Assembly: GCA_017540545.1 (NCBI GenBank)
Contig: JAFYAV010000001.1
Coordinates: 62,001-126,000, forward strand
Direction: 5' to 3'
Source of the DNA: Candidatus Saccharimonadota bacterium
GTDB lineage: Bacteria > Patescibacteriota > Saccharimonadia > Saccharimonadales > Saccharimonadaceae
DNA: 64,000 bases
Shown here: positions 6,928 to 36,390 of the stretch, piece after piece
How positions within the stretch are numbered: the first letter of the stretch is position 1
How the letters are laid out: every line of letters begins with the position of its first letter
Made by a program: the position numbers and the translations under genes
The notes under the pieces: model-generated
What the model saw: only the letters and a program-made list of their open reading frames with translations
Databases searched by the model: none
What the model was told of the DNA's origin: nothing

Positions 6928-8520
6928 TTACTTACTTGCCGCCCGCATCAGCCCCTCAAACAGCGGGTGCGCCCGATATGGTCGACTCTTGAACTCTGGG
7001 TGCGCTTGCGTCGCCACAAAGAAATCGCAACTCGGCGCCTCAACAAATTCCACTAGCTTACCATCCGGCGAAGTCCCCGATACTACCAAACCTCCCGCTT
7101 CAATCTCCTTCAAGAACTTCTGATTCACCTCGTAACGATGGCGATGTCGCTCAACTACATTTTCCGCACCGTACAACTCAGCCACTTTTGAACCTGATAC
7201 TAACTTTGCCGGGCAATCACCCAAACGCATCGTGCCACCCGTACTTTCTTTGCCCTTCTGCCCCTCCATGATGTACACCACATTCGCATCAGCTGGCGCA
7301 TCAAACTCTTCCGAATTTGCATTCTCGACGCCACCTTTTCGCGCCGCCGCAATTACTGCCGTCTGCAAGCCCAGACATAGTCCCAAATACGGTTTATTGT
7401 GCTCCAAACAGTATTTCCCTGCCGCAATCTTCCCCTCAACGCCGCGCACGCCGAAGCCACCCGGCACCACAATGCCGTCCACGCCAACAAAATCTTCTTC
7501 GGTCGCCTTTTCCGCGTCAATCCAGACCGTTTTTAGCTTCACGCCAACTTTCCATGCTGCCGCCTTCAACGCTTCCGTAACCGACAAATAGGTATCCGTA
7601 TTGTCAATATATTTCGCCACCAAACCAATCTTTACTTCTTTACCAGAATCCGATTCTATTTTTTGCACCAATTCTTCCCATTGGCTCATGTCCGGATCGC
7701 CATGATCAATAAAACGCTCAAGTGGCGCCAATACGCCGCCCCTCACGGCATTTAACGGAACCTCATAGACGGATTTTGCATCCGGCATCAGAACTACAGC
7801 ATCTTCTTGAACTGCACAAAATGTCGCCAGCTTCCTCGCAATCTGCGGTGCTTCTATTGTTTTATCTACATCCATTCGCGCCACTACCATATCTGGAATA
7901 ATACCGAGCTCGCGCAAATCCCTCAAAGAATTCTGTGCCGGCTTCGTCTTAAATTCCTGCGAAGTCGACAGCCATGGCACATAACATACATGCACATACA
8001 GACAATTCTCTCGCCCCACACGTGTTCCAAATTCACGAATCGCCTCCACGAAATGCGTTCCTTCCAAATCTCCAATTGTACCGCCGATTTCCACAATATG
8101 CACATCCGAGCCAAAATGCTCCGCATTATCTAGAAAAGTTTGCTGCACTAAACCAGTCACATGCGGGATTAACTGCACCGTCCTACCGCCAAACTTTCCC
8201 GCTCGCTCATCATCGATTAGTCGCTTATATAATTTCCCGGATGTCCAAATCGAGTCGCCCGTCATCTCTTCATCGAGGAATCTTTCATAATGCCCCAAAT
8301 CAAGATCCGTCTCCGCTCCGTCCCGCGTCACAAAGCATTCGCCATGCTCACGCGGATTCAGAAGCCCAGCGTCAACATTAAAATAAGGGTCACATTTCTG
8401 CATTGAAACTTTCAGACCCTTTGCTTTTAGAATTGCGCCGATACTAGCCGCCATGATTCCCTTCCCGACGCCCGAAATCACGCCCCCCGTCACGAAAATA
8501 TATTTAGTTTTTGTTTTCAT
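6928..8520 (-). CDS. pyrG: CTP synthase
   Basis: PyrG converts UTP to CTP using ATP and glutamine-derived ammonia. The N-terminal synthetase domain opens with FVTGGVISGVGKGIMAASIG (P-loop). The C-terminal class I glutamine amidotransferase contains the nucleophile elbow GLCLGLQ, with the catalytic His-Glu in AHPEFKSRP. At 530 aa it is of standard length. The start at 8520 (MKTKTKYIF) was chosen because GGAGGT lies ten bases upstream; seven extra codons are possible but would put the ribosome site inside the gene. A likely promoter is TTGTAG-17-TATGCT around 8568-8596 on the minus strand, with an NrdR-like palindrome further upstream. Confidence 0.95.
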   Translation of the reverse strand: MKTKTKYIFVTGGVISGVGKGIMAASIGAILKAKGLKVSMQKCDPYFNVDAGLLNPREHGECFVTRDGAETDLDLGHYERFLDEEMTGDSIWTSGKLYKRLIDDERAGKFGGRTVQLIPHVTGLVQQTFLDNAEHFGSDVHIVEIGGTIGDLEGTHFVEAIREFGTRVGRENCLYVHVCYVPWLSTSQEFKTKPAQNSLRDLRELGIIPDMVVARMDVDKTIEAPQIARKLATFCAVQEDAVVLMPDAKSVYEVPLNAVRGGVLAPLERFIDHGDPDMSQWEELVQKIESDSGKEVKIGLVAKYIDNTDTYLSVTEALKAAAWKVGVKLKTVWIDAEKATEEDFVGVDGIVVPGGFGVRGVEGKIAAGKYCLEHNKPYLGLCLGLQTAVIAAARKGGVENANSEEFDAPADANVVYIMEGQKGKESTGGTMRLGDCPAKLVSGSKVAELYGAENVVERHRHRYEVNQKFLKEIEAGGLVVSGTSPDGKLVEFVEAPSCDFFVATQAHPEFKSRPYRAHPLFEGLMRAASK

Positions 8521-8637
8521 TTCTCTGGGCACCTCCTTCAATGGCCCACCTTTAAATACACACCCCTAGCATAAGCTATTTCCATTAGCCCTACAACCCC
8601 TGACATTTACCGAAATTGTGTCACAGCACTTGCAAAA

Positions 8638-8655
8638 TACGCTATATATAGCGTA
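8638..8655. promoter_or_regulatory. NrdR-box-like palindrome
   Basis: The perfect 18-bp palindrome TACGCTATATATAGCGTA is flanked by AAA/TTT, which extends it to 24 bp. The core matches the pattern of NrdR boxes (ACAC-TATATATA-GTGT type) and is identical to the operator at 35823-35840. Here it lies about 45 bp upstream of the inferred pyrG -35 box. A second, degenerate site (ending TTGTGT) may lie near 8606-8621. What it controls is unclear. Apart from this site, the pyrG promoter and the promoter and leader of the 226-aa gene, I see nothing in 8521-8971. Confidence 0.55.
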
Positions 8656-35352: not shown

Positions 35353-35787
35353 TTAGCCCGCATACGCGACATTATGAGACAACGCCTGCTCTTCCAAAAG
35401 TCGCGCCCTAGCACCATCATCAATTGCAGAATTGACCGAATGCTTCACTCTTGCTTTTTCCTCGGCCTTCTTGCCATCATTCCAACGCTCTAATGTGCCC
35501 ACGAGATATCCCGTAATTCGGCGCAAACGCTCGAACTTGCTCCCAAAATACTCATCGTGATCCTCGAAATACTTTTTCGCATTCTCTTCACTGCCACATT
35601 TTTCGATCAACGCTGTGCCCAATTCTATCAAACGACTCACATGCAAATTATCAAAATTATCTACGGTTTTTAGCGCTTTCTCGATATCATTTTTGCCAAC
35701 TTTTGCATACTTATTCAAAGATTTTTCAAAACGCTCTAAATCAAATTTGGTTGCATCATTTGCGTCATAATAAATAATATTTCTCAT
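35353..35787 (-). CDS. short protein with anaerobic ribonucleotide reductase-like motif
   Basis: 144 aa. Residues ~90-120 read RLRRITGYLVGTLERWNDGK followed by KAEEKARVKH, which resembles the R-x-TGY-L-x(6)-WN-x-GK-x-E segment near the C-terminus of class III (NrdD) and related reductases. The rest is helical and lacks the zinc Cys pairs and glycyl-radical loop, so it cannot be a whole reductase. The NrdR-like operator in its promoter supports a link to ribonucleotide reduction. It could be a reductase accessory protein or a detached domain. Ribosome site GAGGAAAT precedes the ATG. Confidence 0.6.
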   Translation of the reverse strand: MRNIIYYDANDATKFDLERFEKSLNKYAKVGKNDIEKALKTVDNFDNLHVSRLIELGTALIEKCGSEENAKKYFEDHDEYFGSKFERLRRITGYLVGTLERWNDGKKAEEKARVKHSVNSAIDDGARARLLEEQALSHNVAYAG

Positions 35788-35816: not shown

Positions 35817-35872
35817 ATAATATACGCTATATATAGCGTAGTCAAGACAAAAATGGCGCTATATCTGGTGCT
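35817..35872 (-). promoter_or_regulatory. promoter with paired NrdR-like boxes
   Basis: On the minus strand, TTGACT (complement of 35840-35845) and TATTAT (complement of 35817-35822) are 17 bp apart. The spacer lies entirely within the palindrome TACGCTATATATAGCGTA (35823-35840). A weaker copy, GGCGCTATATCTGGTGCT (35855-35872), lies with its centre 32 bp away, three helical turns. NrdR, the ATP/dATP-sensing repressor of reductase genes, is known to bind such paired boxes 31-32 bp apart. Occupied boxes would block this promoter. Confidence 0.7.
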
Positions 35873-35919: not shown

Positions 35920-35948
35920 TTGACAAAAACGCATTATTATCATAAAAT
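35920..35948 (+). promoter_or_regulatory. sigma70-type promoter
   Basis: TTGACA (35920-35925), 17 bp, TAAAAT (35943-35948), upstream of the 131-aa gene. Confidence 0.75.
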
Positions 35949-35994
35949 ATAAAAGCTCATTCGTATGTCCAGCAATTCCAAAGGAGGTGTATTT

Positions 35995-36390
35995 ATGCTG
36001 GCAAATAATAAAATAGAAGTCCCAATCTTAAAGGGACCGAGCGAAGAGATGGTCTCGCTCGTCGCGGAAGCGATATGCGAAAGTCGCAAATTGGACTATG
36101 GGCCACCATTCTACGCAAGTAAACTCCTGAAATTTCAGATACCCGGAAAACGCTTCCTCCCGTTCTGTCGCCACATTACATTCAACGGGCAAATCAATTC
36201 GATCGAGAAAACAAACGGAGGCGAATGGAAAATCCGCGGCGAGTTTTTCCCTAAAAGGAAGTATGTCGTACGGACCTCAAGGGGCGTTGAATACGTAATT
36301 CCTGAAGGGAAGAAAATAGAATACGAACTGACATATCAATATCATCCCGATAAGTTATCTGGAAATAACATCGTCACAATGTACGTATGA
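35995..36390 (+). CDS. hypothetical protein, 131 aa
   Basis: I do not recognise it. The start MLANNKIEV (35995) follows AAAGGAGGTG by six bases; an in-frame ATG at 35965 precedes the site and is rejected. An N-terminal helix (EEMVSLVAEAICESRKL) is followed by a beta-rich part with GEFFPKRKYVVRTSRGVEYV, suggesting a small alpha+beta fold. There is no TM or signal. It has its own promoter, short leader and strong terminator, like the other ORFan cassettes. Confidence 0.8.
   Translation: MLANNKIEVPILKGPSEEMVSLVAEAICESRKLDYGPPFYASKLLKFQIPGKRFLPFCRHITFNGQINSIEKTNGGEWKIRGEFFPKRKYVVRTSRGVEYVIPEGKKIEYELTYQYHPDKLSGNNIVTMYV

Follow-up and report, generated by a model that had tools for sequence, protein, structure and literature searches.

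Class III ribonucleotide reductases (RNRs) require a glycyl radical on their C-terminal domain, which is generated by NrdG, and RNR genes are repressed by dATP/ATP-loaded NrdR. In the pyruvate formate-lyase system, the radical-bearing tail of the large enzyme can be replaced by a small free-standing protein with a C-terminal glycyl-radical domain, GrcA/YfiD in E. coli and Y06I in phage T4 (PMC8683613). The 2021 YfiD study recognised only these two validated spare parts, both for pyruvate formate-lyase, and its authors suggested that further glycyl-radical enzymes may have such parts too (PMC8683613). Here we describe a 64,000-nucleotide stretch of a Candidatus Saccharimonadota genome (contig JAFYAV010000001.1, positions 62,001 to 126,000; the window), in which a minus-strand gene at 35353-35787, the small gene, encodes a 144-residue stand-alone NrdD-type glycyl-radical protein behind a pair of NrdR-type boxes. 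We regard it as probable that this locus joins an NrdR operator to a detachable glycyl-radical domain for a class III RNR, and that the domain has become obligatory in a sister clade. The small protein is thereby a concrete spare-part candidate for an essential enzyme of DNA-precursor synthesis.

Division of an RNR between polypeptides has precedents: class I RNR already bears its radical on a separate subunit, and both the split class II NrdJa/NrdJb and the phage nrdD genes split by introns or inteins spread an RNR over two polypeptides. The phage nrdD splits are described mostly as genes broken up by introns, inteins or homing endonucleases (PMC3653736), and neither they nor NrdJa/NrdJb are described as parting the radical domain from the barrel. 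The NrdDG systems with an N-terminal ATP-cone from Prevotella copri (8p23) and Streptococcus thermophilus (9d3x) share with this one the presence of NrdG and the same glycyl-radical motif, and the host NrdD and P. copri 8p23 align over their full length; here, however, the glycyl-radical domain is also, or only, a separate polypeptide. A literature search, outside which subscription papers and preprints fell, returned no description of a stand-alone or split NrdD radical domain.

On the regulatory side, published NrdR sites are paired 16-bp palindromes, both of which NrdR needs, with spacers of 15-17 bp, so that their centres lie three helical turns apart (PMC12051234). In such systems the paired boxes overlap the RNR promoter and the repressor combines a ribbon with an ATP-cone, as at this locus, but here the regulator mostly lacks its CxxC zinc ligands within the family, and the gene for a stand-alone radical protein and pyrG are among its putative targets.

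A stand-alone NrdD-type glycyl-radical protein

The 144-residue product comprises a degenerate ATP-cone fold (residues 1-84), an NrdD-type glycyl-radical motif (residues 85-116) and a helical tail (residues 117-144), and contains no catalytic barrel (large subunit). A reading of the DNA made from its letters and open reading frames, hereafter the sequence-only reading, had called this a short reductase-motif gene; it does carry the motif, and is more exactly the gene for a stand-alone glycyl-radical protein. The motif reads FERLRRITGYLVG..RWNDGKKAEE..RVKH, with G93 as the radical glycine, and 31 of the 34 residues of FERLRRITGYLVGTLERWNDGKKAEEKARVKHSV are identical to the NrdD of the same genome. 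The PF13597 match is limited to positions 531-562 of 562 (E 7.9e-8, above cut-off), and all significant family matches are to NrdD families, not to the pyruvate formate-lyase type. The motif, including G93, is invariant across 29 aligned homologues and is also present in all of the best 80 relatives of the N-terminal domain in a collection of 84,980 species.

Residues 1-84 of the structural model (pLDDT mostly 83-91) match 20 ATP-cone entries at Z 6.2-9.7, with the next unrelated entry at 3.6. The best cone match is E. coli NrdR (9gex_D; Z 9.7, rmsd 1.8 Å, 75 residues aligned), and the P. copri NrdD entry 8p2c_A matches at Z 7.7 (rmsd 3.1, 80 aligned). The KRDG nucleotide motif is missing from the small protein in the 29-homologue alignment, and on its sequence we consider nucleotide binding, or nucleotide control through the cone-like domain, doubtful; the domain could be a docking aid.

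The N-terminal part of GrcA/YfiD differs from that of the small protein. The two systems further differ in that GrcA/YfiD and Y06I serve pyruvate formate-lyase (PMC8683613), whereas here the motif is of the NrdD type and the gene is co-regulated with nrdD, and in that the present protein has a cone-like N-terminus and the enzyme of one clade has lost the radical domain from its own chain. Judged from sequence, the small protein would be GrcA-like in working but is not a member of the GrcA family.

By its predicted architecture the small protein is an NrdD minus the catalytic barrel. It probably originated from a duplicate of nrdD by an internal deletion, in which the promoter, the now-degenerate cone and the radical tail were retained and the barrel was lost; this would also explain the operator common to the small gene and nrdD. 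The combination of cone, radical tail and operator also resembles what an internally deleted nrdD would leave behind while decaying, with a leftover nrdD promoter. That the gene is such a decaying fragment is hardly credible, as its frames are full-length, begin with ATG and encode proteins of 66-77% identity across 30 species, the radical motif does not vary, and the gene is also found on phage contigs and in another genus. No frequent frame breaks were seen in the copies read.

A pair of NrdR-type boxes at the promoter

The small gene has a sigma-70-type minus-strand promoter, TTGACT-17-TATTAT, at 35817-35845, which is matched by the promoters of its relatives. The -35 hexamer TTGACT occupies 35845-35840, the 17-bp spacer 35839-35823 and the -10 hexamer TATTAT 35822-35817. 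The whole spacer is contained in the proximal NrdR-type box, a perfect, strandless 18-bp palindrome TACGCTATATATAGCGTA at 35823-35840. A distal degenerate box, GGCGCTATATCTGGTGCT, also strandless, lies upstream at 35855-35872, with a centre-to-centre distance of 32 bp between the two. This layout is exactly that of the sequence-only reading. The box core CRCTATATATAGYG is an AT-centred palindrome and fits the 16-bp ACAC-TATATATA-GTGT type of NrdR box.

The window contains only three perfect 18-bp palindromes, two of which are the TACGCTATATATAGCGTA 18-mer. In the whole genome (795 kb in two contigs, 73.5% complete) this 18-mer has two exact copies and one with two mismatches (CACGCTATATATAGCGTG, upstream of nrdD), and a search allowing up to three mismatches found no others. 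The sequence is thus not scattered, a point on which the NrdR interpretation might have failed: its three close copies precede nrdD, pyrG (encoding CTP synthase) and the small gene. The 14-mer core CGCTATATATAGCG occurs 33 times in 100 relatives and a backward-read control string not once; given this recurrence and the few palindromes in the window, the palindrome is not a product of chance.

The arrangement is conserved across the genus. At all 30 congeneric small-gene loci the proximal box occupies the promoter spacer in nearly the same register, and every one of these promoters matches 9 or more of the 12 promoter positions; the partner box is found at 31, 32 or 33 bp in 29 of them. Boxes also lie upstream of nrdD at all 30 loci read, typically as a pair 33 bp apart with a third about 75 bp farther up. 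A pair 33 bp apart precedes the class II gene nrdJ in a congener without NrdD (G002), and a box precedes the class I gene nrdA in another genus of the family (G048), so that the motif tracks the RNR gene whatever its class. A box lies no more than 260 bp upstream in 75 of the best 80 relatives of the N-terminal domain. The spacings of 32 bp in the window, 31-33 bp in relatives and 33 bp at nrdD fall within that of NrdR sites (centres ~31-33 bp apart). From these features we infer that the palindrome pair is an NrdR operator of the small gene, as the sequence-only reading had proposed. That reading had also seen a lineage variant of the box with CGC/GCG half-sites; CGC does occur, but the variant is a mild one, since CGC and CAC half-sites interchange freely between relatives (CRCTA..TAGYG). 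The loss of the zinc cysteines from the regulator, described below, is the more unusual of the two features.

In three relatives (G006, G023 and G016; loci L147, L148 and L150) nrdD is preceded by four or five NrdR-type boxes, among them an additional close pair with a separation of 21 bp. One-mismatch near-matches elsewhere in the window's own genome have a background-like density, and none of the five whose contexts were examined precedes a recognised nucleotide gene. Boxes at a TatD-like gene in G053 and at a hydrolase-like gene in G002:C2 were discarded because both are within coding regions; in the former, two good boxes stand 30 bp apart (L244:764-811). In the window, a divergent 141-residue open reading frame at 35965-36390 has its own promoter-like TTGACA-17-TAAAAT at 35920-35948, which does not overlap the operator.

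An NrdR homologue without zinc ligands

The nrdR gene that the sequence-only reading sought is present in the genome, behind ftsZ (G000:C2:299044-299514; L007:7042-7515, minus strand). Its product has an ATP-cone (PF03477, 63.5 bits, above cut-off), but both CxxC motifs of the zinc ribbon are missing, with SHLKIGESK and RVSLDGKHRF in their place. The four zinc cysteines are lost in all NrdRs read from the host genus (g1) and in the majority of the family's other genera (loci L065-L104, L109, L113 and L114); they are retained in G047 and G050 of the same family and in nearly all NrdRs from outside it. The DNA-contact residues RRRR and R17 are invariant in the NrdRs read and the ribbon strands are kept. 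All Saccharibacteria read have E at position 15, whether or not their NrdR retains the zinc ligands; characterised NrdRs have D15 (PMC9110341). An AlphaFold model of the host protein (pLDDT 85) keeps the three ribbon strands and matches solved NrdRs.

The loss of the zinc cysteines could mean that the palindrome is the operator of some other regulator, and the pyrG site, a lone box upstream of the likely promoter, is also atypical in that sense. We consider this unlikely, given that the sequence, pairing and spacing of the boxes and their targets (nrdD, nrdJ and nrdA) are all NrdR-like, and that the homologue keeps RRRR and R17, with E for D15, together with the three-stranded ribbon. A literature search, incomplete in coverage, found nothing relevant on NrdR or NrdD in Saccharibacteria or the Candidate Phyla Radiation. 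The zinc-less NrdR is a second, smaller novelty of this system.

Distribution of the small gene and truncation of NrdD

NrdD is found in 43 of the 45 g1 genomes, and the small gene in 31 of those 43; neither of the two genomes without NrdD (G002 and G013), which have a class II NrdJ-type large subunit instead, contains it. The small gene therefore occurs only alongside NrdD in this genus. No class I or II RNR large subunit was seen in the 43 genomes with NrdD, and in the window's genome NrdD is intact. Of the best 80 relatives of the N-terminal domain, 79 are labelled Saccharibacteria or 'uncultured bacterium', many of them from the gut of ruminants or other herbivores, and the remaining one is a short contig labelled Alphaproteobacteria that is probably mis-binned.

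In the sister genus (g2, 60 genomes sampled) NrdD is present in 59 genomes. It is complete in 24, and in the other 35 it ends at profile position 529-531 of 562, just short of the radical glycine. The stand-alone gene accompanies 34 of the 35 truncated NrdDs and 7 of the 24 intact ones (Fisher p = 1.9e-8, which overstates independence, as explained below). Truncated NrdDs read directly (26 genomes and one contig fragment) end like CGFSG..CPHCGRLEGDVPFEKVCNCAKG followed by a stop, all of them before RITGYLV; in every case checked, nrdG is the next gene and begins immediately afterwards, so that a radical domain could not fit in between. The radical-cysteine (catalytic) loop MGCRT is intact. In G045, estimated to be 100% complete, the truncated NrdD and the small gene occur without any other RNR large subunit. 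Near-complete retention of the small gene after loss of the NrdD domain is what an obligate subunit predicts, and the sister clade is a natural loss-of-domain experiment that makes the idea directly testable.

Many of the truncated NrdDs (L272-L277 and L298-L317) carry a short cysteine-containing tail such as VCNCAKG, which is variable and absent in some. Were such a new tail to let the enzyme take its radical from elsewhere, the co-occurrence could be an accident of lineage, and phylogenetically the loss in NrdD is indeed a single event. The variability of the tails, some of which have no cysteine (L307 ends in FERLG and L299 in DNFVGK), and the nearly complete retention of the small gene make this explanation very unlikely.

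A proposed two-polypeptide class III RNR

We propose that at high dATP an NrdR tetramer on both boxes would block the promoter that has the proximal box as its spacer, and that at low dATP the small gene would be expressed together with nrdD and nrdG. NrdG would then place a radical on G93 of the small protein, whose C-terminal loop would insert in trans into the barrel of NrdD and initiate catalysis. Where NrdD is intact, as in the window's genome, the small protein most likely replaces a radical tail cleaved by oxygen, by analogy with YfiD/GrcA; in the sister clade with truncated NrdD it is the only radical carrier found and would be a normal part of the enzyme. It is likely that this is a two-polypeptide class III RNR with the radical glycine on a separate small subunit that bears a degenerate cone. 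This subunit would at first have been an NrdR-controlled spare part derived from an nrdD duplicate and have turned obligatory once NrdD had lost its radical domain, with phages of gut anaerobes bearing a part of the same kind. If true, it adds a radical-subunit architecture to the RNRs, shows a repair part turning into an obligate subunit, and explains how bacteria that depend on a host and have just one, oxygen-sensitive RNR might withstand oxygen.

The small protein might conversely act as an inhibitor or buffer that fills the NrdD barrel or competes for NrdG, damping dNTP synthesis without donating a radical. Both the NrdR operator common to the small gene and nrdD and the cone-like domain, where allosteric control usually resides, would suit such a role. 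But by known chemistry a class III RNR without a glycyl-radical domain cannot work, and in 34 genomes no NrdD-type glycyl-radical domain other than that of the small protein was found; with the invariance of the radical motif, this makes an inhibitor quite improbable.

Several observations weigh against this reading of the operator and the small protein. NrdD occurs in twelve g1 genomes in which the small gene does not, which implies that an intact NrdD can do without the spare part. All truncated NrdDs fall in a single clade (weak support, 0.52), so that the 34 of 35 represent one loss followed by retention, and in one genome with truncated NrdD (G150, 92% complete) the small gene was not found. 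The radical domain of the small-protein model has low confidence (pLDDT ~50). Profile-profile comparison of the N-terminus with NrdD cones was not significant (best local E 0.0097, probability 4%), PF03477 was absent from the matches listed at E up to 10 for the 29 homologues, and the N-terminus matched none of the Pfam cone families; it is therefore by fold that we assign this domain to the cones. Finally, the regulator without zinc ligands scores 120.6 bits against TIGR00244, just below the cut-off of 124.65, and for this reason and the absence of the CxxC motifs we name it an NrdR homologue without zinc ligands.

The box upstream of pyrG

The second exact copy of the 18-bp box (8638-8655, strandless) lies about 125 bp upstream of the start of pyrG, a minus-strand CTP synthase gene at 6928-8520 (NF003792 and TIGR00337 above cut-off; ATG at 8520, reading frame open from 8541). 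No partner for this box was found above the score cut-off. Of 30 relatives, 16 have a single pyrG box, located about 120 bp before the start; the likely promoter, whose -10 sequence is TTATGCT, lies downstream of it. To our knowledge, control of CTP synthesis by NrdR would be without precedent, and a literature search on NrdR together with CTP synthase, incomplete in coverage, found nothing relevant. Consensus folding of the pyrG leaders, from a gappy alignment, gave no structure; the leader (~8520-8552; GGTGGGC...AAGGAGGTGCCCA) may fold into a hairpin that encloses the Shine-Dalgarno sequence, a feature that recurs in most relatives.

Relatives on phage contigs

Three viral contigs encode relatives of the small protein, each with a cone and a glycyl-radical part. 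One, at L402:10001-10417, is a 139-residue protein encoded between the terminase large subunit and portal genes; the others, close relatives, are at L400:7453-7869 and L403:9025-9420. Such radical parts occur in bacterium and phage alike, in parallel with GrcA/YfiD and T4's Y06I, which serve pyruvate formate-lyase (PMC8683613). Six faecal loci labelled 'Bacteriophage sp.' comprise four ordinary full NrdDs and two short stand-alone radical motifs. Several viral contigs have shorter stand-alone radical motifs, ~60-120 residues long, with no NrdD within the stretch examined. Free-standing NrdD-type glycyl-radical reading frames of this size are found at L405, L406, L407, L408, L410, L412 and L413; their N-termini are unrelated, which suggests that NrdD radical domains became stand-alone several times.
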